Positions 679 to 16,692 of a stretch of 18,076 nt of DNA are shown here, piece after piece. The notes beneath the pieces were generated by a model. That model did not search any database, had not been told where the DNA came from, and was given only the letters and a program-made list of their open reading frames with translations. Source of the DNA: an uncultured Clostridia bacterium. GTDB taxonomy: Bacteria; Bacillota; Clostridia; Oscillospirales; Ruminococcaceae. The stretch covers positions 1 to 18,076 of the forward strand of contig CAMVBT010000012.1 of the NCBI GenBank assembly GCA_947165805.1, read 5' to 3'. The first letter of the stretch is position 1. Each line of letters starts with the position of its first letter. The translations under genes were made by a program, and so were the position numbers.

Positions 679-1740
679 ATGAAGAAGCTATCGTGTATAC
701 TGAATATCGCCGCGGCGCTGCCCGCGGTATTGTTTCTGGCGGGAACGGCGGTAAGCTGGAGATCATGCGACGCCGTTCCCGCGGTGAATATGACGGAATA
801 CGAGGAGCGGCGTACCGTGATACCGTGCGGTACGCCCTTCGGCATAAAGATGCTGACAGACGGAGTTGTCGTCACCGATTTCGGCACCGTGAACGGCCGC
901 CTCAGCCAGCAGTCACCTGCCGAGGCCGCCGGCATACGCAAGGGCGACATAATCACGTCGGTGAACGGCATAGCTGTCACTGACAGTATAAGGCTCTGCG
1001 AAGCCGTGCAGGAAAACCCCGCCTGCACCATCAAGGTACTGCGGGAGGGCGAGGAGCTGACATTTACCGCCAAAGCCCTCGAGTCGGACAGGGACGGCGA
1101 GTACAGGCTCGGCATGTGGACAAAGGATAGCGTGGCGGGCATAGGGACGATGACCTACTACGACCCGGATACCTGCGTGTTCGCGGGGCTCGGGCACGGG
1201 ATAAGCGACACGTCGTCGGGAGTGCGTATGCCGCTGCTCAGCGGCGAGATCACGGCGGTCACCATAACCGACGTGATACGCGGAGCCGACGGTATGCCCG
1301 GCGAGCTGTGCGGGGCGTTCATCTCCAGCGTGGAGATAGGGAAGCTCACGCTGAACAGCGACTTCGGGGTGTTCGGCGAGTGCGCGGCTGCGCCTCTGCT
1401 CGGCGAGCCCGTCCCGGTAGCGCGGCGCGACGAGGTGAAGCCCGGAGCCGCGATCATATACACCACCACCGGCGGCATGATGCCCGAGGAATATGACATC
1501 GAGATCGTCAGCGTGGACCGTTACAGCACCTCTCCGGTGCGCAACATGACCATACGCATAACCGACCCCGACCTGCTCGCGCGCACGGGCGGCATAGTGC
1601 AGGGCATGAGCGGCAGCCCCATAATACAGGACGGGCGGCTCGTCGGCGCGGTGACACACGTCCTTGTCAACGAAGCGGACATGGGATACGCCGTATTCGC
1701 CGAAAACATGATTAATGCGGAAAAAGCCGGAAACCGATAA
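679..1740 (+). CDS. spoIVB: SpoIVB-type intramembrane-signalling serine peptidase (S55)
   Basis: SpoIVB is the forespore-secreted peptidase that cuts SpoIVFA in the intermembrane space and so triggers SpoIVFB processing of pro-sigma-K. This 353-residue protein has an N-terminal signal anchor (about 6-26), a PDZ domain (about 55-135, with AAGIRKGDIITSVNG) and the S55 peptidase domain. Family landmarks are GIGTMTYYDP (154-163), the His in GLGHGIS (H173), the TDPD stretch (Asp 296/298) and the catalytic Ser in GMSGSP (S311). It is shorter than the Bacillus protein (about 425 residues), mostly in the N-terminal region. AGAAGG nine bases upstream of ATG 679 supports the start. The gene is monocistronic, with a hairpin terminator right after the stop. 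In Bacillus and Clostridium spo0A usually follows directly; here it does not. Confidence 0.93.
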   Translation: MKKLSCILNIAAALPAVLFLAGTAVSWRSCDAVPAVNMTEYEERRTVIPCGTPFGIKMLTDGVVVTDFGTVNGRLSQQSPAEAAGIRKGDIITSVNGIAVTDSIRLCEAVQENPACTIKVLREGEELTFTAKALESDRDGEYRLGMWTKDSVAGIGTMTYYDPDTCVFAGLGHGISDTSSGVRMPLLSGEITAVTITDVIRGADGMPGELCGAFISSVEIGKLTLNSDFGVFGECAAAPLLGEPVPVARRDEVKPGAAIIYTTTGGMMPEEYDIEIVSVDRYSTSPVRNMTIRITDPDLLARTGGIVQGMSGSPIIQDGRLVGAVTHVLVNEADMGYAVFAENMINAEKAGNR

Positions 1741-1747
1741 AAAACAG

Positions 1748-1784
1748 CTGCTCCTTTTCACCCGTAAAAGGAGCAGTTTTCTTT
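1748..1784 (+). terminator. Rho-independent terminator of spoIVB
   Basis: An 11-bp perfect inverted repeat (CTGCTCCTTTT at 1748-1758, AAAAGGAGCAG at 1766-1776) with a 7-base loop is followed by TTTTCTTT. It lies seven bases after the spoIVB stop and separates it from the Pse operon. Confidence 0.9.
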
Positions 1785-1862
1785 GAGCCGGAAGCGCGGA
1801 GGCTGCCTTATCACGCTCCGGAGCATATCGCGGAGCCCGCCGGACGTTATTTGCGGCACCCC

Positions 1863-1891
1863 TTGACAGATGAACGGTTAAATGCTACAAT
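1863..1891 (+). promoter_or_regulatory. Sigma-A promoter of the Pse operon (extended -10)
   Basis: Consensus TTGACA (1863-1868), a 17-base spacer and TACAAT (1886-1891), with TGC directly upstream of the -10 (1883-1885) acting as an extended -10 element. The predicted transcript start is near 1898, about 220 bases upstream of pseB. This is the strongest-looking promoter in the first 10 kb and the only good one found upstream of the seven-gene operon. Confidence 0.85.
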
Positions 1892-1894
1892 ACA

Positions 1895-1920
1895 GATATG
1901 ACCGGAAAACCGGTCATGTC
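1895..1920 (+). promoter_or_regulatory. Hairpin/palindrome at the predicted transcript start
   Basis: ATGACCGG (1898-1905), loop AAAA and CCGGTCAT (1910-1917) form an 8-bp perfect inverted repeat, extendable to 11 bp (1895-1905 with 1910-1920) with one T-G pair. It starts at about +1 of the promoter at 1863-1891. It could be a repressor operator or a 5' mRNA stem that protects the transcript; the sequence alone cannot decide. Confidence 0.6.
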
Positions 1921-2119
1921 AGAGAAAAATTATCCGCCGGCCCCTGCTGCTCCAATGCCGCGAAGGGCTCCGCCCCCTGCGCGGACCCTGTGCGAGGCGG
2001 AGAAGGAACGCCCTGCGGCGGCAGCCGATATCCAGGCTATGCAAAAAGAACGAATCACAGACCTTGACGCGTTTGTGTCACGATAATAAAAACAACAGAT
2101 CCACAGGGAGGATATGGAA
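1898..2119 (+). other. Pse-operon 5' leader with a possible short leader ORF (1898 or 1916 to 2086)
   Basis: This 222-base stretch between promoter and pseB start is GC-rich and folds locally, for example CTCCGCC near 1968 against GGCGGAG near 1995. It holds one open frame of 62 codons from ATG 1898, or 56 from ATG 1916. The product is Pro/Ala-rich at the front and more acidic and helical towards the end (ITDLDAFVSR). ATG 1898 coincides with the predicted transcript start, so it would be leaderless; ATG 1916 has no ribosome binding site outside the hairpin. I see no known riboswitch and no terminator with a U-tract. It may be a leader peptide, an untranslated structured leader or a meaningless ORF. 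Confidence 0.35.
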
Positions 2120-3115
2120 ATGCTCAAAAACTCAACGATCCTGATAACAGGCGGCACCGGCTCCTTCGGCAACACCTTCGTCCCGATGACACTGGCGAAG
2201 TACGACCCCAAAAAGATCATCATATACAGCCGCGACGAGATGAAACAGTGGAACATGGCGAAAAAGTTCCCGAACGATCCCCGGGTGCGCTTCTTCATCG
2301 GCGATGTCAGGGATAAGGAACGGCTCTACCGCGCCCTGAACGGAGTCGATTATGTTGTCCACGCGGCAGCGACAAAGATCGTACCGACGGCGGAGTATAA
2401 TCCCTTCGAGTGCATCAAAACAAATGTAAACGGTGCGATGAATCTTATAGACGCCTGCATAGACAGCGGCGTCAAAAGGCTTGTGGCGCTCTCCACAGAT
2501 AAAGCGTCCCAGCCCGTCAACCTTTACGGCGCGACGAAGCTGTGTTCCGACAAGGTCTTCATTGCGGGCAACGCCTATACCGGCGGGAAAACCAGATTCG
2601 CCGTCGTTCGTTACGGCAATGTCATGGGCTCCCGCGGATCGGTCATCCCGTTCTTTATGGAGACAGCACGTTCGGGCAGGCTGACGATCACCGACAAGCG
2701 CATGACGCGCTTCATGATAACACTGGAGCAAGGTGTCGAATTGGTCTGGCACGCGTTCGACGACATGGAGGGCGGCGAGATCTATGTAAAGAAGATCCCG
2801 TCAATGAATATCTGCGATATCGCGACCGCGGTGGACGCAAACGCCGAGCAGGTCGAGATCGGGATACGCCCGGGCGAGAAACTTCATGAGCAGATGATCG
2901 GTGTCGAGGACGCGCCATTTACTTACGAATACACGGATCACTTCAAGATACTCCCGCAGATATGCAGCTGGGGGCCTTTCGATGCCATGATCAAGGAAGG
3001 CAGGCCTGTCCCGGAAGGCTTCAGCTATACATCCGACAAAAACAAAGAGTGGATGACGATCCCGCAGCTTCAGGAATGGATAGAGAAGAATAAGGCTAAG
3101 ATCGGAAGCATCTGA
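2120..3115 (+). CDS. pseB: PseB, UDP-GlcNAc 4,6-dehydratase (C5-inverting)
   Basis: First enzyme of pseudaminic acid synthesis: it converts UDP-GlcNAc to the UDP-4-keto-6-deoxy-L-arabino-hexos sugar using bound NADP. The 331-residue product is an extended SDR protein with the nucleotide loop GGTGSFG (11-17), the family signature YSRDEMKQW (36-44) and the active-site set STDKA (D127, K128) and YGATK (Y136, K140), matching the D/K/Y arrangement known from FlaA1. I chose ATG 2120 over ATG 2114 because GGAGG (2107-2111) is 8 bases from the former but only 2 from the latter, and family members usually start close to the ILITGGTG strand. It leads the operon, and pseC starts 18 bases after its stop. 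Confidence 0.93.
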   Translation: MLKNSTILITGGTGSFGNTFVPMTLAKYDPKKIIIYSRDEMKQWNMAKKFPNDPRVRFFIGDVRDKERLYRALNGVDYVVHAAATKIVPTAEYNPFECIKTNVNGAMNLIDACIDSGVKRLVALSTDKASQPVNLYGATKLCSDKVFIAGNAYTGGKTRFAVVRYGNVMGSRGSVIPFFMETARSGRLTITDKRMTRFMITLEQGVELVWHAFDDMEGGEIYVKKIPSMNICDIATAVDANAEQVEIGIRPGEKLHEQMIGVEDAPFTYEYTDHFKILPQICSWGPFDAMIKEGRPVPEGFSYTSDKNKEWMTIPQLQEWIEKNKAKIGSI

Positions 3116-3133
3116 AAAAGAAGAGGTTTTGAT

Positions 3134-4333
3134 ATGGAAAAGCTGGCGATCAAGGGCGGTGATCCTGTCCGCAGCACGAAGATCTTCTACGGGCGGCAAT
3201 GGATAGATGAGGACGATATAAAGGCTGTGTCGGATACACTGCGGTCCGACTACATTACCTGCGGCCCGAAGGTCGAAGAACTTGAAAAGGAGCTTGCCCG
3301 CCACACGGGAGCAAAGTATGCCATAGCCGTAAGCAGCGGAACAGCGGCTCTTCATTGCGCCTGTATCGCGGCAGGCATCGGTCCCGGCGATGAAGTCATC
3401 ACGACGCCGCTCACTTTCGCGGCATCAGCGAACTGCGCTCTCTATGTCGGTGCGCGCCCGGTTTTCGCCGATATCGATACCGGGACCTACAACATCGACC
3501 CGGCAAGTATTCGCGAGAGGATCACAGACAGGACAAAGGCTGTTGTGGCCGTTGACTTCACGGGTCAGGCCGTGCGGCATGATGAGATCAGGAAGATCTG
3601 CGACGAGTACGGTCTGGTCTTCATCGAGGACGCGGCTCATTCGCTCGCGACAAAGTATAACGGGAAACAGGTCGGCTCCTTAGCCGATATGACTACATTC
3701 TCCTTCCACCCCGTAAAAACGATAACCGGCGGCGAGGGCGGAGCCATCACGACGAATAACGAAGATTCATATAAAAAGCTTGTTCTCGCTCATACCCACG
3801 GCATCACACATGACGAGAGCCTTATGGAAGATGCTCCGCACGAAGGACCCTGGTATTACGAACAGATCGCTTTGGGCTACAACTATCGCATCACAGATAT
3901 CCAGGCGGCTCTGATCGTCAGTCAGATGAAAAAACTTGACAGGTTCGCCGCGAGGAGAAAGGAGATCGTAAAGCGATATGACGAAGCATTCGGCACGATC
4001 CCCGGGATCATTGTACAGAAAGAGATACCGCAGTCCGATACCTGCCGGCATCTGTACATCATACGTCTGGATCCCGGCAAGCTGACGTGCACGCGCCGCG
4101 AATTCTTTGACGCTATGTCCGCCGAAAATGTCCGGTGCCAGATACACTACGTTCCCGTATATTGGTTCCCGTATTACAGGCATCTCGGATACGAAAAAGG
4201 TCTTTGCCCGAATGCGGAGGAGGTTTACAAAGGGATAATGAGTATCCCGCTCTATCCGAAGATGACCGATCGGGACGTGGATGATGTCATCCACGCGGTG
4301 AAGAAGGTCGCGGGATATTACAGAAAAACGTAA
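3134..4333 (+). CDS. pseC: PseC, UDP-4-amino-4,6-dideoxy-N-acetyl-altrosamine transaminase
   Basis: PLP enzyme of the DegT/DnrJ/EryC1 family that aminates C4 of the PseB product. The 399-residue protein has YGRQWIDEDD (19-28), AVSSGTAALH (65-74) for phosphate binding of PLP, the acidic EDAAHS (165-170) that contacts the pyridine nitrogen, and the Schiff-base lysine K195 in FHPVKTITGGEGG. Length and motif order are typical. AAGAGG lies upstream of ATG 3134. It is followed by a 70-base gap holding a GC-rich hairpin, the largest gap within the core five genes. The family also contains other sugar aminotransferases; the neighbours pseB, pseG and pseI make PseC the specific call. Confidence 0.93.
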   Translation: MEKLAIKGGDPVRSTKIFYGRQWIDEDDIKAVSDTLRSDYITCGPKVEELEKELARHTGAKYAIAVSSGTAALHCACIAAGIGPGDEVITTPLTFAASANCALYVGARPVFADIDTGTYNIDPASIRERITDRTKAVVAVDFTGQAVRHDEIRKICDEYGLVFIEDAAHSLATKYNGKQVGSLADMTTFSFHPVKTITGGEGGAITTNNEDSYKKLVLAHTHGITHDESLMEDAPHEGPWYYEQIALGYNYRITDIQAALIVSQMKKLDRFAARRKEIVKRYDEAFGTIPGIIVQKEIPQSDTCRHLYIIRLDPGKLTCTRREFFDAMSAENVRCQIHYVPVYWFPYYRHLGYEKGLCPNAEEVYKGIMSIPLYPKMTDRDVDDVIHAVKKVAGYYRKT

Positions 4334-4355
4334 CGCTGAGGAAGCGCGGAAGACT

Positions 4356-4379
4356 CCCCGCCCGGGTCCGGCGGCGGGG
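4356..4379 (+). promoter_or_regulatory. GC-rich intercistronic hairpin between pseC and pseF
   Basis: CCCCGCC (4356-4362) and GGCGGGG (4373-4379) form a 7-bp all-GC stem with a 10-base loop in the 70-base pseC-pseF gap. No T-run follows, so it is not a standard terminator. It could stabilise an upstream mRNA segment or modulate pseF expression. Confidence 0.5.
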
Positions 4380-4403
4380 ACGATCGACAGGAGACATTCT
4401 ATT

Positions 4404-5105
4404 ATGAGCAGTATCGCTATCATCACGGCCCGCGGAGGGTCAAAGAGGATACCCGGCAAAAACATAAGATCATTCTGCGGAAGACCGATCATCGCTTACA
4501 GTATCGAAGCGGCATCGGGAGCCGAGATATATTCCGAAGTCATGGTCTCCACAGACAGCGAAGAGATCGCGGAGACCGCCGTGAAATACGGGGCAAGCGT
4601 CCCCTTTATGCGCAGCGCGGAAACGTCCGGCGACCATGCGACCACCCGCGATGTGCTGATGGAAGTGCTGTCGGAATATAAAAAACGCGGCAGGTCTTTT
4701 GATGATATGACCTGTATCTACCCGACAGCCCCATTTGTCACGGCGGAGAAGCTGAGAGCGGCAATGAAGCTTTTCCGGGAGTCGCGCAGCTCCCTGCTGA
4801 TCCCTGTCGTGCAGTTCTCATATCCTCCGCAGAGGGCTTATATCATAGAGGACGGAAAGCTCCGGTTCAAATGGGAGGAGTACAGATATGCCAGGTCGCA
4901 GGATACAGAGCCTTTCTATCATGAAGCCGGACAGTTCTACTGTTACAACATCTCGGACTACCTTGCGGCGGACGGAACGATCAGAGAGAACATCGTTCCG
5001 TTTATTCTTCCGGAGTCGGAAGTCCAGGATATCGACACCGAGGAAGATTGGAAGCTGGCAGAGCTGAAGTTCGAGCTGATGAGGAGGAAAAACGCCGATG
5101 AATAA
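4404..5105 (+). CDS. pseF: PseF, CMP-pseudaminic acid cytidylyltransferase
   Basis: Last step of the pathway: CTP plus pseudaminic acid gives CMP-Pse, the donor used by glycosyltransferases. The 233-residue product begins with the CMP-sialic-acid-synthetase signature ARGGSKRIPGKN (9-20), the CTP-binding loop, followed by GRPIIAYSIEAA. The mid-protein stretch CIYPTAPF (about residue 109) and the C-terminal DIDTEEDW, which provides the metal-binding aspartates, are also typical. Size fits PseF rather than the two-domain animal-type enzyme. AGGAGA sits about 10 bases before ATG 4404. The stop overlaps the start of pseI by 8 bases, suggesting translational coupling. Confidence 0.92.
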   Translation: MSSIAIITARGGSKRIPGKNIRSFCGRPIIAYSIEAASGAEIYSEVMVSTDSEEIAETAVKYGASVPFMRSAETSGDHATTRDVLMEVLSEYKKRGRSFDDMTCIYPTAPFVTAEKLRAAMKLFRESRSSLLIPVVQFSYPPQRAYIIEDGKLRFKWEEYRYARSQDTEPFYHEAGQFYCYNISDYLAADGTIRENIVPFILPESEVQDIDTEEDWKLAELKFELMRRKNADE

Positions 5106-6153
5106 GACAATAAAGATAGGCAGCAGGATAATAGGCGAAGGTCAGCCTGTCTATATTATTGCCGAGATGTCCGCAAATCACCTGCAGGACTATGAAAGAG
5201 CGAAGAAAATAATACTGGCGGCGAAGGAGGCCGGCGCAGATGCCGTCAAGCTCCAGACATACCGCCCCGATACGATCACGATAGATTGCCGCGGCGACGA
5301 GTTCATGGCGACGAAGGGCAGCCTTTGGGAAGGGCAGAACCTTTATCAGCTCTATGAGTCGGCATATATGCCGTGGGAATGGCATGAAGGGCTGTTTGAA
5401 TACGCGAGGGAGACAGGCATCGAGATATTTTCTTCTCCGTTCGACTTTACGGCGGTCGATCTGTTGGAGGGGCTGAACGCTCCCGCGTATAAGATCGCCT
5501 CTTATGAAATAATGGATATCCCGCTGATAAAGCGCTGTGCCGCGACCGGAAAGCCCGTTATCCTTTCTACGGGCATAGCCGCGCTTGCCGACACCGAAAG
5601 AGCGGTGAACGCCTGTAAAGCCGAGGGGAACGAGGATATAGCCATTCTGAAATGTGTATCTCAGTATCCCACTCCTTATCCGGATCTGAATTTAAGGACG
5701 ATCCCGCATATGGCGGAGATGTTTGACTGCGTCACGGGACTTTCGGATCACTCGATGGGGCACGCGGCAGATGTGGCGGCAGTGGCGCTTGGCGCACATA
5801 TCATCGAGAAGCACATGACGCTCCGCCGCTCGGACGGAGGCGCAGACGCGGCGTTCTCTATGGAGCCGGAGGAGTTCGCTCAGATGGTGACCGATGTCCG
5901 CAACATCGAAAAAGCTTTAGGAAAAGTTGCATATGAACTGACGGAGGCTCAGGAACGCGGCAGAAAAAACGCGCGTTCCTTGTATGCCGTTGAGGACATC
6001 AAGGCAGGAGAAGTATTCACCGGTCAGAACATCAGGTCTGTCAGACCCGGAAGAGGACTGCACACATGGCATTATGAAGAGATACTCGGCAGGAAGGCAG
6101 CCGCCGATATCAAGCGCGGGACAGCGCTGAAATGGGAATATATCGGGGATTAA
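5098..6153 (+). CDS. pseI: PseI, pseudaminic acid synthase (NeuB family)
   Basis: Condenses the free 2,4-diacylamino-trideoxy-altrose with phosphoenolpyruvate to give the nine-carbon acid. The 351-residue protein has the NeuB TIM-barrel (about 10-270) with IAEMSANH (21-28), KLQTY (51-55), SSPFD (112-116) and two likely metal-binding histidines, H218 in SDHS and H239 in EKHMTL. A C-terminal SAF antifreeze-like domain (about 285-345) follows, as in all NeuB-type synthases. AGGAGG lies inside the 3' end of pseF upstream of ATG 5098, and the two genes overlap by 8 bases. The opening sequence is of the PseI rather than the NeuB or LegI type, as judged by memory of family members. Confidence 0.94.
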   Translation: MNKTIKIGSRIIGEGQPVYIIAEMSANHLQDYERAKKIILAAKEAGADAVKLQTYRPDTITIDCRGDEFMATKGSLWEGQNLYQLYESAYMPWEWHEGLFEYARETGIEIFSSPFDFTAVDLLEGLNAPAYKIASYEIMDIPLIKRCAATGKPVILSTGIAALADTERAVNACKAEGNEDIAILKCVSQYPTPYPDLNLRTIPHMAEMFDCVTGLSDHSMGHAADVAAVALGAHIIEKHMTLRRSDGGADAAFSMEPEEFAQMVTDVRNIEKALGKVAYELTEAQERGRKNARSLYAVEDIKAGEVFTGQNIRSVRPGRGLHTWHYEEILGRKAAADIKRGTALKWEYIGD

Positions 6154-6163
6154 GGGGATAATT

Positions 6164-7186
6164 ATGTTATTTGTCAGAGCGGACAGCAATCCGACGATCT
6201 CGGGCGGACATATCATGCGCTGTCTGGCAATAGCGAACGAGCTCGCCGACCGGGGTGAGCAGGTGTGTTTCCTTGTTGCGGACGATGATCCCGTTCCCGT
6301 ACTGGAGGAAGCCGGGGTCCCTTACATCGTTCTTCGCTCCGACTGGCGCGATCCGATGACAGACGCGGAACAGGTGAAGGGCTTGCTGGAAAAAGACTCT
6401 CATCCTGTTCTGCTGATAGATACATATCAGGTAACAAGAGAATATGTCGAAAAGCTAAAGCCTTATTGCAGGATCGCTTACTTAGGGAGCAAAAAGGAGT
6501 ACCTCGGACAGCTTGATCTGCTCATAAACTACAGCATGGCTACTGATCACGAGTTCTACAGAAAAAACTATGATGAGCGGACCGTACTGCTTCTCGGACC
6601 TCGATACGCTCCCTTACGGAAAGAATTCCGGAACGCGGTCCGCGAATACCGGGATCGCGTCGAGCGAATACTCATTACCACGGGAAATACGGATCATGAT
6701 AATATGGTGTCCGCTGTTATCGAAGGGCTCAGGCCGATTGCCGCCGGAACGGGGATAAGGCTCGATGTTGTCGTCGGGCGGATGTTCGGGCATAAAAAAG
6801 AACTGCATGAGGCATACGATAATGAGCCTGATATAATCCTGCACGAGAATGTGAAGTCAATGTCGGCACTGATGAAAGACTGCGATATGGCCGTTTCCGC
6901 AAACGGCACGACAGTCTATGAGCTGTCCGCAATGGGGCTTCCGACGATATCGTTTGCTATGGCCGAGGAACAGACAAAGAGCGCGGAAGCCATGTCCGAA
7001 GCAGCGGCAGTGGACTACTGCGGACGATCGTTCGAGGATAAGGACAGATGCGTCGCCCGGATCGTGAGCAGGGTGTCTTATTATCTCGCGGATAACAACA
7101 GGCTGATAGAACTGGCAGAAAGAGCTCATGCTCTTATCGGCGGAAACGGCGTATTTCTCATCGCGAATGCGTTATGCTCATTATGA
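6164..7186 (+). CDS. pseG: PseG, UDP-2,4-diacetamido-2,4,6-trideoxy-altropyranose hydrolase
   Basis: Releases UDP from the nucleotide sugar, giving the free sugar for PseI. The 340-residue protein has the GT-B-like fold of the MurG/PseG group. It opens with RADSNPTISGGHIMRCLAIA, containing the glycine-rich loop and the catalytic-type histidine H16. It shows LLIDTY (about 84-89) and the C-terminal SANGTTVYELSAMGLPTI region that binds the uridine diphosphate. GGGGAT precedes ATG 6164, 10 bases after the pseI stop. Presence of PseG, rather than a NeuC/LegG-type hydrolysing epimerase, is what marks the cluster as pseudaminic and not legionaminic acid. No PseH domain is fused to it. Confidence 0.92.
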   Translation: MLFVRADSNPTISGGHIMRCLAIANELADRGEQVCFLVADDDPVPVLEEAGVPYIVLRSDWRDPMTDAEQVKGLLEKDSHPVLLIDTYQVTREYVEKLKPYCRIAYLGSKKEYLGQLDLLINYSMATDHEFYRKNYDERTVLLLGPRYAPLRKEFRNAVREYRDRVERILITTGNTDHDNMVSAVIEGLRPIAAGTGIRLDVVVGRMFGHKKELHEAYDNEPDIILHENVKSMSALMKDCDMAVSANGTTVYELSAMGLPTISFAMAEEQTKSAEAMSEAAAVDYCGRSFEDKDRCVARIVSRVSYYLADNNRLIELAERAHALIGGNGVFLIANALCSL

Positions 7187-7242
7187 ATGCTGACAGCGGG
7201 CAGACCGTACAAACGCTGAATATATAAAAGAGAGGCAAGACT

Positions 7243-8253
7243 ATGTTCGTTATAATCGGCGCGTCGAGCTTTATCGGGGTCTACACGGCCACCCATTTTA
7301 TAGAGAACGGAGAAAAAGTCGTTGTAACAGGACGGAACAACAAGTTCCGGGAGTATTATGATTCTGTCGGCGCCGACTATGTCGGCCTGGACCTGACACA
7401 TCCGGAAGATTTCGAGAAACTCCCGAAAGAAGGAGTCGAAGGCGTCATCCTCATTTCCGGTGCTCTTCCGGCAAGCGAGAATGCCGATCTTAAAGAGAAG
7501 GAAAACGCGGATCAATATATAAAGGTCAATACTCTCGGAACGTGCTATGCGCTGGAGTATTGCAGAAGAAACGGCATCGGGCGTCTTATAAACACGATCT
7601 CCTTCGGCGACGTCGCAGGCGCGTGGAGGACCGACCCTCCCGTTGATGAATCCGAACCGAGAGATTTCAGCTTCGCCGGCGACCATGCGGTGTACGTTAT
7701 TTCCAAGAACGCGGCGGCTGATATCATGATGTACTATAACCGGCAGCACGGAATGAAAAATGCCTGGTTCAGACTGCCTCCCGTGTACGGAGTCGGCCCC
7801 CACGGCCACCTGAAGGTCAACGGAAAGACCGTAAAGTCAGGTCTTCAGACCTTTATAGATAAGGCTAAGGCCGGAGAGACCATCGAAGTATACGGATATC
7901 TGGCGAGAGACACAGTCTATGTGAAGGACGTTGCCCAGGCTTATTACAAAGCGGCTAAGAGCGAGAACGCATACGGCCTCTACAATATTACATCCGGAAA
8001 AGCCACGACACTGCTCGAACAGGCAGAGGTCTGCGCCGACCTGTTCGCGGCTGACAGCGGACACAGATCGGAAGTCATATACCGGGACGATATGGTGAAC
8101 AGCGGCAGATCATACCTGTTCTCGATCGAAAAAGCAAGGCGTGATTTCGGATATGAGCCCGTGTTCTCCGACTTCCGGGAGCTGATGAAGGACTATATCA
8201 AGGAGACAGAACGCGGCGTATATCCGCGGCTTTTTGCCGACAGAGAAGTGTAA
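7243..8253 (+). CDS. SDR-family NAD(P)-dependent epimerase/dehydratase in the Pse operon
   Basis: A 336-residue extended SDR enzyme acting on a nucleotide sugar or sugar acid, substrate unknown. The Rossmann loop is unusually close to the start (GASSFIG, 6-12). The catalytic pair is Y151 and K155 in YVISK, with S120 in NTISFGD as the third residue. VYGVGP lies in the substrate-binding half, and FGYEP near residue 302 is the usual C-terminal mark. It differs clearly from pseB, so it is not a duplicate. AGAGAGG lies upstream of ATG 7243, 56 bases after pseG. Its position suggests a tailoring step (epimerisation or reduction) on a Pse derivative, but this is inference. Confidence 0.8.
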   Translation: MFVIIGASSFIGVYTATHFIENGEKVVVTGRNNKFREYYDSVGADYVGLDLTHPEDFEKLPKEGVEGVILISGALPASENADLKEKENADQYIKVNTLGTCYALEYCRRNGIGRLINTISFGDVAGAWRTDPPVDESEPRDFSFAGDHAVYVISKNAAADIMMYYNRQHGMKNAWFRLPPVYGVGPHGHLKVNGKTVKSGLQTFIDKAKAGETIEVYGYLARDTVYVKDVAQAYYKAAKSENAYGLYNITSGKATTLLEQAEVCADLFAADSGHRSEVIYRDDMVNSGRSYLFSIEKARRDFGYEPVFSDFRELMKDYIKETERGVYPRLFADREV

Positions 8254-8272
8254 AAACGAAAGGAAAACGATC

Positions 8273-9463
8273 ATGAAGTCTATCTTCATTCTCGGGGCCG
8301 GCAGGCTGCAGATCCCGGCGATCAGGAAGGCAAAAGAAAAAGGGCTCTTCGTCTATGTGCTGGATTATGATCCGGAAGCCCCCGGTATACGATACGCTGA
8401 CAAGTTCCTGGAGATCAGTACGATAGACAGGGAGGCGGTATATAAGGCCGCTCTCGAATACCAGCCCGATCACATCATCACCTCCACAAGCGATATGCCG
8501 GTCAGGACAGTGTCTTGGGTCTGCGAAAAACTCGGGAAGCAGACCGATATCTCCTACGAAGGCGCTGTGTGCGCGACCGACAAGATATCTATGATGAAAC
8601 GTATGCGGGAGTGCGGAGTACCCGTTCCGGAGTTTTATGAGATCAGGGATCCCGACGAATTTCTTGTTACAGCCGCCAGGATGCCCGCAAGATTTATCCT
8701 TAAACCCGCAGATAATGCCGCAAGCCGGGGCGTTATCCTGATAGACAAGGAAAAAAGCCCGGATCTTGAAGAACTGTACAGATACTGTATACAATACTCC
8801 CGGAGCGGCGAGGCTATTGCCGAGGAGTTCATGGAAGGCCCCGAGGTCAGTGTTGAGTCTTTTACCGTTAACGGGGAACCTCACATCATAACCATCACCG
8901 ATAAGATAGTTACCGAGCTGCCCTTTTTTGTGGAACTCGGACATACCGAGCCCAGCAGATTGACTCCCGTACAGCAGGAGGATATCAGAAGAACAGCGGA
9001 TGCCGCCGTCCGCGCGATAGGTATGCGGAACGGACCTACTCATACAGAAATAAAGGTCACGCCCGCGGGAGCAAGACTCGTCGAGATAGCGGCCCGGGCA
9101 GGCGGCGACTTCATAACATCAAGATTGGTGCCGCTTTCCACCGGCGTTGATATGACAGAGTGTTCGTTCGCCGCTCTTCTGGGCGAAGAGGTCCATTGCC
9201 GCGGAAAGTTCGACCGCGGGGCCGCCATTCGGTTTATTCAGGGCGAAAAAGGCATACTAAAGGCTGTCGAAGGTGTTGAAGCGGCACGAAGCATGCCCGG
9301 AGTTCAGGAAACAGAGATCTATATGAAGACCGGAGACCGTATCAGACGGCCGGAAAACAGCTCCGACCGTATCGGCCATGTCATCGCAACCGGAAAAAAT
9401 GCCGATGAGGCAGCTTTCAACGCTGAGGCGGCGCTGGCACAGATCCGGGTCATTGTCGGATAG
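8273..9463 (+). CDS. ATP-grasp carboxylate-amine ligase in the Pse operon
   Basis: A 396-residue ATP-grasp protein. It has an N-terminal Rossmann-like pre-ATP-grasp domain (ILGAGRLQIP, 6-14; VLDYDPEAPG, 29-38), ATP-binding lysines K104 (TDKISM) and K144 (FILKPADN), the adenine-contact stretch EEFMEGPEVSVES (184-196) and metal ligands E259 and E271 followed by AARAGGD. The arrangement resembles L-amino-acid ligase and PurK/PylC-type enzymes, which join a carboxylate to an amine through an acyl phosphate. ATG 8273 has AGGA 8 bases upstream; a longer frame from 8234 overlaps the previous gene and adds nothing conserved. As the only amide-forming candidate in an operon lacking PseH, it may acylate an amine of the sugar. 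The substrate is unknown. Confidence 0.85.
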   Translation: MKSIFILGAGRLQIPAIRKAKEKGLFVYVLDYDPEAPGIRYADKFLEISTIDREAVYKAALEYQPDHIITSTSDMPVRTVSWVCEKLGKQTDISYEGAVCATDKISMMKRMRECGVPVPEFYEIRDPDEFLVTAARMPARFILKPADNAASRGVILIDKEKSPDLEELYRYCIQYSRSGEAIAEEFMEGPEVSVESFTVNGEPHIITITDKIVTELPFFVELGHTEPSRLTPVQQEDIRRTADAAVRAIGMRNGPTHTEIKVTPAGARLVEIAARAGGDFITSRLVPLSTGVDMTECSFAALLGEEVHCRGKFDRGAAIRFIQGEKGILKAVEGVEAARSMPGVQETEIYMKTGDRIRRPENSSDRIGHVIATGKNADEAAFNAEAALAQIRVIVG

Positions 9464-9554
9464 GCCGGCGGGGTCTGCTGTACGGCAATGATGTATAACA
9501 GCTGCTGATATCTGTATATCAGAACATCTGCCGGATGAAAAGAGAGGGACCGAT

Positions 9555-10134
9555 ATGACAGACAAGCTTTTCGGCGGTATAAGAATGACATGGCTGAAGG
9601 TGATACTGTTCGCAGCCGCGGCAGGCATCTATACAGCGCTCATGGCGATTTTTGTGCCGCACTCGAATTCATTTCACGATATAGCGGTCAATACGGAGGG
9701 CTGGATACTTCCCGCGCTCATCATCATCACGAACTGCGAGAAGCCGCTCGAAGCAGCGTTAAGACATTCGTGTTCTTTCTGATATCACAGCCGCTCGTAT
9801 ATCTGATACAGGTGCCGTTCAACGGTCTCGGCTGGGGGCTGTTCCGATATTACGGCTTCTGGTTCATAATGACGCTCCTTACCTTCCCGGGAGCGTTCAT
9901 AGGCTGGTATATAAAAAAGGACAACATACTGTCGGGGCTGATACTGTCCGTTATGACCGTATTGCCAGCGATAATGGGGGCAGGATATCTGAATACCGCG
10001 ATAAGGAGCTTCCCGGATCATCTGCTGTCGGCCAATATATTGCTTTGCGATGATGCCGGTATATATATTCGGTATCCTGAAATCGAAAGGTTCACGGATA
10101 ACTGCGTCTGTTGTTGCCGTTATTGCGGTAAAGG
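9555..10134 (+). pseudogene. Multi-TM membrane protein broken by a -1 and a +1 frameshift
   Basis: Three reading segments join into one plausible hydrophobic protein. The first runs from ATG 9555 (GAGGG six bases upstream) to about 9768 and ends with ...EKPLEAAL. The second, in another frame from about 9769 to 10035, begins KTFVFFLISQPLVYL and ends ...FPDHLLSA. The third returns to the first frame and reads CFAMMPVYIFGILKSKGS, then a helix VVAVIAV. Each break is explained by one lost base (near 9769) and one extra base (near 10036). The whole would have about six membrane helices. Unbroken, it reads like the membrane half of a two-part protein whose other half is the protease domain that follows. 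Family not recognised. Sequencing or assembly error is the alternative to true decay. Confidence 0.7.
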
Positions 10135-10137
10135 TAA

Positions 10138-10695
10138 ATGTACTACGCACCGACAGCGGCTCATGTTGTGAGCATCGAACATTCGGAGCTGCTTGTTTTC
10201 ACCGTCAATACCGATATGCGTTCCGAGAACATTCCCGGGCTTGAGGGATTCAATATGCTTTCCGCAGATGTTTATAACTCAATGTACAAGGCGGAAATAA
10301 TGTTTGTCAGCAGCCTTGACGATCTCGCGGTCATAAGGTTCTCTTCGGACGAGGAGCTTTCCGTTATCGAGTTTGCCGACAGCGATCCCGGAATAAATGA
10401 TCGTATCATGTGCGTCGGCAATCCGCAGAATGAATGGTTCAGAGTTTCTTACGGCAAGGTAACATCGGGTATCGAACGGTTCGGGGAATTCAAGGGCTTC
10501 CCGAGCAGCGCAATGAAGCATACCGCGTATATTCAGGTCGGCAGCAGCGGCGGCGCTGCAATAAACGAACAGATGCGGCTTGCGGGAATAACACCGGGGG
10601 CTTCCCTTTCGCTTGACGGGAGCACTTTCAATTACGGTGTGATGATACCTGTAAGCGAGATCAGAAAATGCCTTGATGAGTGGACAGACCGATAA
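10138..10695 (+). pseudogene. Trypsin-like serine protease domain, N-terminally truncated
   Basis: The 185-residue frame carries the trypsin/HtrA-type triad in order: His in TAAHVV (about residue 9), Asp in DDLAVIRF (about 62) and Ser in GSSGGA (about 141), plus IMCVGNP and YGKVTSGI between them. The roughly 20-25 residues that normally form the first strands before TAAHVV are missing, and no ribosome binding site precedes ATG 10138, which sits directly after an in-frame stop. A +1 shift near 10130 would join it to the preceding membrane segment. It is most likely the C-terminal domain of a membrane-anchored protease gene that is now broken. The catalytic residues themselves are intact. Confidence 0.7.
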
Positions 10696-10738
10696 AACAG
10701 TGTACTGAAACAAATATCTGTCCGTATCGCAAAAACTC

Positions 10739-10767
10739 TTGAAAAATACCGCCCGATGTGATATAAT
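10739..10767 (+). promoter_or_regulatory. Sigma-A promoter of the DMT transporter
   Basis: TTGAAA (10739-10744), 17-base spacer, TATAAT (10762-10767). Predicted start near 10774, 28 bases upstream of the ATG at 10802. The -35 and spacer overlap the left arm of a 12-bp inverted repeat. Confidence 0.85.
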
Positions 10768-10800
10768 ATCCCTCGATGTCGAAAAAAAGGCGGTATTTTT
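10742..10800 (+). repeat. 12-bp perfect inverted repeat flanking the -10 and covering the RBS
   Basis: AAAAATACCGCC (10742-10753) and its exact complement GGCGGTATTTTT (10789-10800), 35 bases apart. The left arm lies in the -35/spacer and is not transcribed from the local promoter; the right arm includes the likely ribosome binding site (AAGGCGG) of the transporter gene. Confidence 0.8.
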
Positions 10801-15131: not shown

Positions 15132-15398
15132 TTATGCCATTTTCTGGGAAGGCCACGTTCCGACGAGCCACTCCCAGTCGCTGTCGCAGTCCGCCGATGT
15201 GGCGAAAAGCGGGTAGAAACGCTTCTCAAACGCCTCGAAGCAGGCTTTCGCGTTACGGCTCGCCTCTCCGAACATACGAAGTGCCCGGGCATCGTCCGGG
15301 TGGGTGTCGAGGTAGAGCTTGAGGTCGGTAACGTAGAATGCCGCCTCACTTACCTTCTGCATGAGCTGCTGTGCGCTCATCTGTCTGTTATTTTCCAT
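15132..15398 (-). CDS. cotJB: CotJB spore coat protein
   Basis: An 88-residue protein with the CotJB features: a helical front half (SAQQLMQKVSEAAFYVTDL), LYLDTHPDD at about residue 28, and a C-terminal CDSDWEWLVGTWPSQ with several Trp and acidic residues. It is needed with CotJA and CotJC for coat assembly in Bacillus. An AAAGGGGG ribosome binding site lies about 8 bases before the ATG, inside the end of cotJA, which it overlaps by 11 bases. Order and spacing match the usual cotJABC operon. Confidence 0.92.
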   Translation of the reverse strand: MENNRQMSAQQLMQKVSEAAFYVTDLKLYLDTHPDDARALRMFGEASRNAKACFEAFEKRFYPLFATSADCDSDWEWLVGTWPSQKMA

Positions 15399-15579
15399 CG
15401 TATATCCCCCTTTCGTATTCGCCGATGCCTATATCGAGCTCGGGGAATATCGTGCCGCGGGTGATAGCTTTTTCGGGCGTATAGACCTTGCCGAGCTTCT
15501 GGAACGGCACATTCGCGTAGCCGACGGCGATCTTTGTCGGGTAGTCGGCAGTGCTGTGTTCGTATTCGTTGCAGTTCAT
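15388..15579 (-). CDS. cotJA: CotJA spore coat-associated protein
   Basis: A 63-residue protein with the CotJA pattern: VGYANVPFQKLGKVYTPEKA (about 19-38) followed by ITRGTIFPELD and a short tail. CotJA is a small coat-associated protein encoded first in cotJABC. AAAGGAAG lies about 8 bases before the start codon. A sporulation-type -10 box (CATACAAT) lies about 45 bases upstream. The short, unusual N-terminus (MNCNEYEHSTADYPT) carries no recognised motif. Confidence 0.9.
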   Translation of the reverse strand: MNCNEYEHSTADYPTKIAVGYANVPFQKLGKVYTPEKAITRGTIFPELDIGIGEYERGIYDGK

Positions 15580-15623
15580 CGCATTTCTTCCTTTCGTAGA
15601 ATTGATTGCCTTACGGCTTCTAT

Positions 15624-15631
15624 ATTGTATG
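15624..15631 (-). promoter_or_regulatory. Possible mother-cell sigma (E/K) -10 box for cotJABC
   Basis: On the minus strand CATACAAT matches the -10 of mother-cell sigma-E promoters and is also close to the sigma-K gCATAnnnTA form. About 16 bases upstream lies CACAC, containing the short AC element of sigma-K -35 regions. The match is short, and the cotJ operon is known to be sigma-E controlled in Bacillus, which fits the position. Confidence 0.45.
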
Positions 15632-15700
15632 CCGCGGGCAGCCGCTGTGTGATTTCCGGCATATATCGGGAAAATTCGTGTAAAAATCTTCCGAAACGTA

Positions 15701-15729
15701 TTGAAAAAAACGGGCTGCTGTGCTATAAT
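15701..15729 (+). promoter_or_regulatory. Sigma-A promoter for the GNAT-smpB operon
   Basis: TTGAAA (15701-15706), 17-base spacer, TATAAT (15724-15729), about 52 bases before the GNAT start. It is divergent from the cotJABC promoter. Confidence 0.85.
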
Positions 15730-15780
15730 TATTGTAAGTCAGCGATCAGGCCCGTTCGGGCAGCGCAAAGGAGTGATACT

Positions 15781-16221
15781 ATGGTAAGGATAAGAGAAGC
15801 AGAAGCCGGCGATCTCGACAGACTGCTCGAGCTGTACTCACTGCTGTTCGGACGAAGCATTCTTGAAAAGAACGAAGAGACCGTCAGGATATGGGATCAT
15901 ATCATGACAGACAAGATGTACCACGTCATAGTGGCGGAAGAGAACGGTGTCCTTGTTTCCACCTGCACCTGCGTTATTATCCCGAACCTTACATACGACC
16001 AGCGTTCATTCGCTGTCGTCGAGAACATAGTCACGAAGAGCGAGTACCGCGCTCAGGGCTTCGCGACCGCCTGTCTCGAGGAGGCGAAGAGGATCGCCGA
16101 AGCGAACAACTGCTTCCGCATCATGCTCGCCACACAGTCGAAGCTCCAGTCGACGCATAAATTCTACGAAAGGCTGGGTTACAGCAAGGACGATATGACG
16201 GCGTTCACCCAGTGGTTATAA
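15781..16221 (+). CDS. GNAT-family N-acetyltransferase
   Basis: A 146-residue single-domain acetyl-CoA-dependent acyltransferase. Strand VRIREAEAGDLDRLLELY opens the fold. VVENIVTKSEYRAQGFATACLEEA (about 80-103) includes the pyrophosphate-binding loop, here YRAQGFAT (motif A, R/Q-x-x-G-x-A/G form), and NNCFRIMLATQSK followed by THKFYERLGY (motif B) closes it. The substrate is unknown. AAAGGAG lies 7 bases before ATG 15781, and smpB starts 9 bases after the stop, so they are co-transcribed. It has the shape of a general small GNAT rather than PseH. Confidence 0.85.
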   Translation: MVRIREAEAGDLDRLLELYSLLFGRSILEKNEETVRIWDHIMTDKMYHVIVAEENGVLVSTCTCVIIPNLTYDQRSFAVVENIVTKSEYRAQGFATACLEEAKRIAEANNCFRIMLATQSKLQSTHKFYERLGYSKDDMTAFTQWL

Positions 16222-16230
16222 AGGAGAAAA

Positions 16231-16692
16231 ATGGCAGAAAACACTAAAACCATATCAGAAAACAGACAGGTAAGGCACGAATACTTCATCGTCGAGAGCC
16301 TCGAGGCGGGCATCGAGCTGACCGGCACCGAGGTCAAGTCGATACGTCAGGGCGGCGTCAACCTGCGCGACTCATGGATAGAGATAGAAAAAGGCGAGGC
16401 CTACGTCAAGCAGATGCACATATCCCCCTACGAAAAGGGAAACATATTCAACAAGGATCCGATGCGCGAGCGCAGGCTCCTGATGCACAAGCGCGAGATA
16501 ATGCGGCTCTACGGGCTCGTAAAGACCGACGGACTCACGCTGATACCGGTCTCGCTCTACTTCAAGGGCAGCCGCGTAAAGATGCAGGTTGGGCTCTGCA
16601 AGGGCAAGAAGCTCTACGACAAGCGCGCCTCGATGGCAGAGCGCGATGCCAAGCGCGCCATTGACCGCGCCATAAAGGAGCGCAATCAGTGA
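16231..16692 (+). CDS. smpB: SmpB, tmRNA-binding protein
   Basis: SmpB binds tmRNA and brings it to stalled ribosomes for trans-translation. The 153-residue protein shows the family path: NRQVRHEYFIVESLEAGIEL (11-30), TGTEVKSIRQG (31-41), AYVKQMHISPYEKGN (57-71) and the basic C-terminal tail KGKKLYDKRASMAERDAKR that inserts into the decoding path. AAAGGAG precedes ATG 16231. The GTG start of the next gene overlaps its stop. The tmRNA gene ssrA, often nearby, is not seen in this window. Confidence 0.96.
   Translation: MAENTKTISENRQVRHEYFIVESLEAGIELTGTEVKSIRQGGVNLRDSWIEIEKGEAYVKQMHISPYEKGNIFNKDPMRERRLLMHKREIMRLYGLVKTDGLTLIPVSLYFKGSRVKMQVGLCKGKKLYDKRASMAERDAKRAIDRAIKERNQ

Follow-up and report, generated by a model that had tools for sequence, protein, structure and literature searches.

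The canonical pathway to CMP-Pse5Ac7Ac, the activated di-N-acetyl form of pseudaminic acid (Pse), consists of PseBCHGIF, as described for Campylobacter jejuni and Helicobacter pylori in PMC7910423. The operon reported here lies on contig CAMVBT010000012.1 of an uncultured Clostridia bacterium, a stretch of 18,076 bases that was analysed as one whole contig and is called the window below. It shares PseB, PseC, PseG, PseI and PseF with the canonical pathway, all over their equivalog cut-offs, but has no PseH and carries instead an extended short-chain dehydrogenase/reductase (SDR) and an ATP-grasp ligase. This ligase probably takes over from PseH by joining a carboxylate, activated with ATP, to the amine that PseC introduces at C4 (N7 of the product).

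Replacement of an acetyltransferase by an ATP-grasp enzyme has precedent in Neisseria. There PglB2, an ATP-grasp/phosphoglycosyltransferase protein, and PglB are mutually exclusive, with glyceramido and acetyl products, respectively (PMC11130364, PMC6959607); the available text of PMC6959607 calls the transfer by PglB2 proposed. As these papers describe it, the ATP-grasp domain stands in for the N-acetyltransferase of a 4-amino-4,6-dideoxy-HexNAc pathway. The window has the same arrangement in gene content, as distinct from activity: an ATP-grasp gene occupies the acetyltransferase's place after a 4-aminotransferase. The likeness is drawn from the published descriptions rather than from the PglB2 sequence, and PglB2 differs in being fused to a phosphoglycosyltransferase and in serving the bacillosamine (D-gluco) series, whereas the window protein consists of ATP-grasp and LAL_C2 domains only.

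Shewanella oneidensis offers a less direct precedent. It has PseB and PseC with no clear PseH, and the available part of PMC3765264 reports no clear orthologues of PseG, PseI or PseF. Its flagellin carries a mono-N-acetyl nonulosonic acid plus a 236-264 Da moiety thought to be nitrogen-free, and deletion of sfmE, an ATP-grasp gene and the last of sfmABCDE, alters the gel mobility of flagellin, the shift being a little smaller than in the other four deletion mutants (PMC3765264). In both organisms an ATP-grasp gene ends a nonulosonic acid operon without a clear PseH; the comparison again follows the description, not the sequence, and the same source, as far as available, does not assign SfmE to N-acylation. 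In Vibrio vulnificus, Leg5Ac7AcAla bears an acetyl-alanyl group at N7 (PMC7371886). An alanyl-bearing N7 group of the kind proposed here thus exists in nature, but in the legionaminic series, and the accessible text of that report does not name the enzyme that attaches it.

A pse operon with an ATP-grasp gene and no PseH

Seven plus-strand genes span 2114-9463 in the order pseB-pseC-pseF-pseI-pseG-SDR-ATP-grasp, with intergenic gaps of 18, 70, -8, 10, 56 and 19 bases:

2114..3115, + strand: pseB, UDP-GlcNAc 4,6-dehydratase (5-inverting); TIGR03589, 517 bits (NCBIfam equivalog cut-off 407.75)
3134..4333, + strand: pseC, C4 aminotransferase; TIGR03588, 464 bits (cut-off 423.5)
4404..5105, + strand: pseF, CMP-pseudaminic acid cytidylyltransferase; TIGR03584, 265 bits (cut-off 205.7)
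5098..6153, + strand: pseI, pseudaminic acid synthase; TIGR03586, 497 bits (cut-off 340.25)
6164..7186, + strand: pseG, UDP-sugar hydrolase; TIGR03590, 186 bits (cut-off 153.55); no GNAT domain in Pfam
7243..8253, + strand: extended SDR, GalE/NDP-sugar epimerase-like; PF01370, Tyr-x-x-x-Lys present
8273..9463, + strand: ATP-grasp carboxylate-amine ligase of the L-amino acid ligase group, the proposed PseH replacement; PF13535 (ATP-grasp_4) and PF18603 (LAL_C2)

The initial annotation had recognised pseB, pseC, pseF, pseI and pseG, and all five exceed their NCBIfam equivalog cut-offs. Its gene content was right, with pseB starting at 2114 and not at 2120; its inventory of Pse genes plus an ATP-grasp gene was also sound but overlooked the SDR at 7243-8253. 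It had further claimed that PseH is neither present nor fused, and this holds for the operon: Pfam finds no acetyltransferase domain in any operon protein, separate or fused. A PseH hidden within or between the operon genes is ruled out, since PseG has no GNAT domain and gaps of 70 bases or less leave no room for a missed gene. The GNAT open reading frame (ORF) at 15361-16221, 5.9 kb downstream of the operon with an Acetyltransf_1 domain in residues 155-274, was rejected as PseH because TIGR03585 finds no match there.

A genome search for PseH, which the initial annotation had put forward as a check, returned nothing at the TIGR03585 cut-off of 93.1 bits; the three sub-threshold matches in the window's own genome (28, 22 and 22 bits) lie on other contigs. 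This assembly (2.5 Mb) is in 354 contigs and 80% complete, so absence of PseH from the organism is not proven. PseH reached the cut-off in 0 of 15 genomes searched, which comprised the own genome (G000), 13 genomes with Pse-linked orthologues of the ligase, and G011 from the same genus, the sole other genome with PseI over cut-off among 60 relatives searched. The best matches were 28 bits in G000, 27.5 in G445 (source of locus L046), 43 in G193 and 38 in G421, the last two assemblies being 99% and 100% complete, and G011 had no match at E 1e-5. Sub-threshold matches reach 88 bits (G452) elsewhere among the 15.

The ligase itself looks active, because K104, K144, E184, E185, E259, E271, R275 and a GGD motif, the ATP-grasp residues, are invariant in 26 relatives. 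Its AlphaFold model (mean pLDDT 92.9, pTM 0.90) has 4dim, 3vot (TMq 0.83), RizA (4wd3), PurT and BacD as structural neighbours, and a profile search places it near 4dim, the L-amino acid ligase 3vot and BacD. The protein combines an ATP-grasp fold, ATP- and Mg-binding residues and LAL_C2. It shares the fold with the L-amino acid ligases BL00235 (3vot), RizA (4wd3) and BacD (3vmm), to which it is 18-20% identical in structural alignments, and its ATP-grasp motifs align with those of 3vot. These three enzymes make dipeptides; in the ATP-grasp fold generally, a carboxylate is activated as an acyl phosphate and then passed to an amine. The sugar-operon context argues for a sugar acceptor here, as against ligation of two L-amino acids.

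Relatives of the ligase were collected by a scan of one genome per species, from which the best 80 of 96 loci were taken. Together with class-level relatives, 14 loci have the ligase beside pse genes: the window, L046, L127, six from Butyrivibrio (L047-L052), L053-L056 and L131. These 14 orthologues form one clade (SH-aLRT 99) in a quick tree of 76 rows that left out rows of 170 bits or less, and the PseH-to-ATP-grasp swap recurs when operon content is compared across related Clostridia, as the initial annotation had suggested doing. Four more Pse-linked loci (L276, L290, L292 and L333), absent from that tree, come from the sample of family f51, taken as Lachnospiraceae. L046 has the same seven-gene order as the window, with 74% identity in the ATP-grasp protein and 77% in the SDR; because this order recurs, the operon is not a chance arrangement.

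The SDR model (mean pLDDT 83) resembles GalE-type epimerases, with GalE-type 4zrn as best Foldseek match. An SDR accompanies the ligase in three Pse loci (window, L046, L127) and in five non-Pse loci, whose SDRs are 54-58% identical to that of the window. As it is found with the ligase in some loci and was not seen in the Butyrivibrio operons among the loci examined, it appears to be an optional tailoring enzyme that is not needed for ligation as such.

Non-Pse relatives of the ligase, at 41-47% identity, occupy other polysaccharide loci. In 13 of the 14 nearest, a DegT aminotransferase and separate PglC-like genes lie on the ligase's strand, joined in eight by a CapD-like dehydratase; the exception is L064, on a 5 kb contig. 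L066 illustrates the set, with a CapD-like dehydratase, DegT aminotransferase, SDR, Bac_transf phosphoglycosyltransferase and ATP-grasp protein identified by Pfam. Nine of 13 have no PglD-like or PseH-like gene, while weak PglD-like matches (26.7-27.8 bits, against a single query sequence) occur in L057, L063 and L067, and GNATs in L060 and L063. No match to a nonulosonic acid synthase was seen in the non-Pse ligase loci, where the expected ligase acceptor, judging by gene content, is a 4-amino hexose. The tree labels 17 rows DegT_PGT, of which four (L064, L095, L104, L132) have no PglC-like match; L095 and L104 (31-33% identity) hold DegT, ATP-grasp and GNAT genes in a row. Spirochaete and Nitrospina relatives showed no complete pse set in the flanks compared, some of them short. 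In a Nitrospinaceae relative (L077:3084-5336) the ligase is fused to an FMN-dependent dehydrogenase domain, and L075 and L084 have similarly long ORFs.

ATP-grasp and acyltransferase genes across PseI loci

A survey of 348 f51 genomes found PseI over cut-off in 76, with 77 loci. The 77 f51 loci compared below are 71 from this survey plus L127, L209, L131, L219, L220 and L214. GNAT, formyltransferase and ATP-grasp genes were classed with home-made hidden Markov models (thresholds 45 and 100 bits). Of the 77 loci, 21 have an ATP-grasp gene no further than 7 kb from PseI. A GNAT or formyltransferase gene accompanies one of these 21 and 32 of the 56 others (Fisher two-sided p 1.9e-5, for a distance chosen after part of the data had been seen and with many contigs short). 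The p value runs from 1.3e-3 to 1.6e-5 for distances of 2-9 kb, and in loci with full flanks the acyltransferase counts are 1/14 and 25/38 (p 3.2e-4). In the other 33 loci, made up of the rest of a class survey and L126, they are 0/5 and 18/28 (p 0.013); of these five ATP-grasp loci, L207, L211, L215 and L217 are f51 loci as well, which leaves only the window from outside the family. PseB, C, F, G and I all fall within 9 kb in 20 loci; of these, 10 have a GNAT or formyltransferase only, 8 an ATP-grasp gene only, none both and two (L280, L318) neither. PseB, PseC, PseG and PseF are themselves unassociated with GNAT/formyltransferase genes (p 0.35, 0.17, 1.0 and 0.20).

The class survey covered 391 genomes, 37 with PseI over cut-off, and 38 loci were examined. 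Ten of them carry a PseH-type GNAT, six a short GNAT, four a formyltransferase, three a window-type ligase (window, L127, L131) and five an ATP-grasp gene of another type; in the remaining ten no such gene was found. Formyltransferases occur in pse operons without a PseH match at L126:8241-8867, L199:2757-3599, L206:7810-8448 and L216:9473-10381, of which L126 is the same-genus operon of G011; by their gene content such operons point to N-formyl pseudaminic acids.

The ATP-grasp genes are of more than one kind. By profile score, 8 of the 21 in f51 match the window type and 10 a second type, and the other 3 fit neither well; the two types separate in the ligase tree. On the best PseI tree, ATP-grasp genes come or go at least 11 times. 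In a PseG tree of 43 rows, one clade (100) holds all 18 ATP-grasp rows together with a single GNAT row, and PseI rejects this PseG-type grouping (AU p 0.0001). We set this tree aside as proof of co-evolution and regard it as suggestive only, because the ATP-grasp PseG clade is also nearly all f51.

Several fused or adjoining domains accompany these genes. At L285:10208-12193, between PseI and PseG, PseF is fused to an ATP-grasp domain (CTP_transf_3 + ATP-grasp_4) that fits neither type well; a flagellin-like ORF, read by eye, lies near this fusion. Pfam identifies a fold-III pyridoxal phosphate (PLP) decarboxylase domain fused to PseF at L207:9953-11872, and a separate fold-III PLP decarboxylase at L304:10083-11354, adjoining PseI/PseG in a locus that also has an ATP-grasp gene. 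These decarboxylases hint at amino acid chemistry. The PseF proteins of L211, L214, L215 and L217 are similar in length to the L207 fusion, Pfam having been run on L207 and L304 only. At L054:3764-6115 and L055:5732-8023 a domain of ~400 residues is fused to the PseG N-terminus, with at most a marginal DegT match in L054; a stand-alone relative of it occurs near the ligase in L056 and the Butyrivibrio loci.

A proposed pathway and its rivals

In the pathway that we propose, PseB and PseC would convert UDP-GlcNAc to UDP-4-amino-4,6-dideoxy-L-AltNAc. With ATP, the ligase would phosphorylate a free carboxylic acid, which may be an amino acid or else a hydroxy acid, for example glycerate, and the sugar amine would attack the resulting acyl phosphate to form an amide. 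PseG would then release the sugar, PseI would condense it with phosphoenolpyruvate and PseF would CMP-activate the product. The SDR probably modifies either the nucleotide sugar or the acyl group. The initial annotation had already cast the ATP-grasp enzyme as the substitute for PseH. At the gene level, the comparison supports that swap through the avoidance between ATP-grasp and acyltransferase genes, the single Pse-linked clade, the aminotransferase neighbours elsewhere and the L285 fusion. Acceptor, donor, attached group, timing, order of steps, the role of the SDR and the tolerance of PseG and PseI are what we infer from this pattern.

Several observations weigh against replacement of PseH by the ligase. 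L311 (8987-11944) is the sole f51 locus where an ATP-grasp gene and a PseH-like GNAT occur together within 7 kb of PseI, and 24 of the 77 have none of the searched enzymes within that distance, so that lack of PseH says little by itself. PseF is found nearby more often in ATP-grasp loci (p 0.008), which means that the locus classes differ in more than one gene. An independent-pairs test on starred branches of the PseI tree (109 of 110 rows, one fusion of at least 420 residues being dropped) yielded 7 pairs only, with GNAT/formyltransferase state opposite in 1.3, the same in 0.2 and not different in 5.5; it is without power, and shared ancestry may therefore inflate the p values. In Shewanella, cells without sfmE still swim; the 236-264 Da moiety comes off readily in the ion source, and the available part of the report does not prove how it is linked (PMC3765264). 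Such easy cleavage is not expected of an amide.

To the same side of the balance belong the findings that would allow a GNAT encoded elsewhere to acetylate the amine, with the ATP-grasp enzyme acting only once the standard sugar is finished and adding a further group, for instance as an amide on another amine or on a neighbouring sugar. The own assembly, 80% complete, could lack a PseH that the organism has, and L127 has an extra CysE-like hexapeptide protein between PseC and a dehydratase that is FnlA-like and below the PseB cut-off. PseH-like GNATs of 72-82 bits lie on the operon contigs of L047, L052 and L055 (genomes G446, G451, G454), 11-19 kb from the ligase, and four of five ATP-grasp loci of the g59 type have one 11-12 kb from PseI. 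These distant GNATs have company of their own, however: in the loci annotated, a second DegT aminotransferase lies near, and those of L047, L052 and L055 also have a CapD-like dehydratase close by. The GNATs of these three loci may serve another sugar or be shared with the pse operon. The best PseH scores of G000, G445, G193 and G421 stay far under the cut-off, G011 has no match, and near PseI the ATP-grasp and acyltransferase genes avoid each other. We therefore think a separate acetylating GNAT unlikely.

Less probable again is that the ligase acts late, acylating the C7 amine of 7-amino-Pse or CMP-7-amino-Pse after PseG and PseI have handled a free-amine sugar. The L285 fusion could point to such a later step, as could the position of the ligase gene directly 3' of PseI in L053-L056 and L131, and the 274 Da unit of Shewanella is, according to the available text, mono-N-acetyl (PMC3765264). 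Yet the same ligase family in DegT/PglC-like loci without PseI or PseF must use a UDP-4-amino or lipid-linked sugar, and late acylation also sits poorly with the PseG clade that unites the 18 ATP-grasp rows with one GNAT row, nearly all f51 though that clade is. Amidation of the nonulosonic acid's own C1 carboxylate, finally, would satisfy the need of an ATP-grasp ligase for a carboxylate, of which Pse has one. The nearest non-Pse relatives accompany bacillosamine-kind genes, where the sugar to be expected has no carboxylate, and C1 amidation would leave the avoidance of N-acyltransferase genes unexplained; we give it very little credence.

A broader picture is possible, which we offer tentatively and as somewhat more doubtful than not: that of a widespread and so far undescribed branch of nonulosonic acid biosynthesis. 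Ligases of at least two lineages would make 7-N-aminoacyl or hydroxyacyl Pse in the 21 of 77 f51 PseI loci and, by transfer, in the window. Partner enzymes would tailor the amino acid or the sugar: the SDR here, the PLP decarboxylase in L207 and L304, and the PseG-fused domain in L054 and L055. An exchangeable ligase would in this way determine how the surface sugar is charged and shaped.

A Pse gene cluster is easily read as a sign of the di-N-acetyl sugar. If an exchangeable enzyme decides what N7 carries, be it an acetyltransferase, a formyltransferase or an ATP-grasp ligase, many surface sugars of gut bacteria are mis-predicted, and some could bear a charged or bulky amino acid at N7. The ligase would also open an enzymatic path that leads directly from UDP-4-amino-AltNAc to unnatural Pse derivatives and needs only free acids with ATP; PMC7910423 describes chemical acylation for this purpose. 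This operon type is not described in the titles or abstract openings of the open-access literature searched, and the term 'ATP-grasp' does not occur in a 2026 survey of Pse in Clostridium.

Genomic context and neighbouring features

The spoIVB-like protein that flanks the operon is 77% identical to those of G002 and G010 of the same genus and 42-63% identical to those of 13 other same-genus genomes, compared with 41% (G421) and 38% (G257) in f51. Gene order shared with G002, G010 and G014 extends over the first two genes, to ~1718, and breaks off just after spoIVB; beyond it, 4.6, 14.4 and 2.1 kb, respectively, were compared, and the right-hand boundary was not found. A mis-binned contig was considered and set aside, given the left-flank synteny and a spoIVB-like flank closest to same-genus genomes. 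The contig most likely belongs to the host genome, with the operon looking like its foreign part. Because the left flank matches the genus to ~1718 and the operon's nearest relatives were found in f51, a family of another order, horizontal gain is suggested.

No transferase for the sugar was recognised in the window. Maf-type flagellin transfer was rejected, PF01973 being found in none of five genomes searched; GT52 occurs in one of the five (G421), and the own genome has neither.

Two further features lie upstream of the operon:

1863..1891, + strand: strong promoter-like site (TTGACA, 17, TACAAT, with TG), by consensus match only
1898..1917, unstranded: 8-pair inverted repeat just 3' of the promoter-like site, a possible operator, regulator site or leader hairpin

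Promoter-like sites number 14 in 1700-10800, compared with 7.9 expected from shuffles. Just downstream of the operon, at 10138-10695, an ORF of 185 residues has a trypsin-like protease domain (Trypsin_2). Further on, downstream of the GNAT ORF, the ORF at 16231-16692 reads like SmpB by eye.

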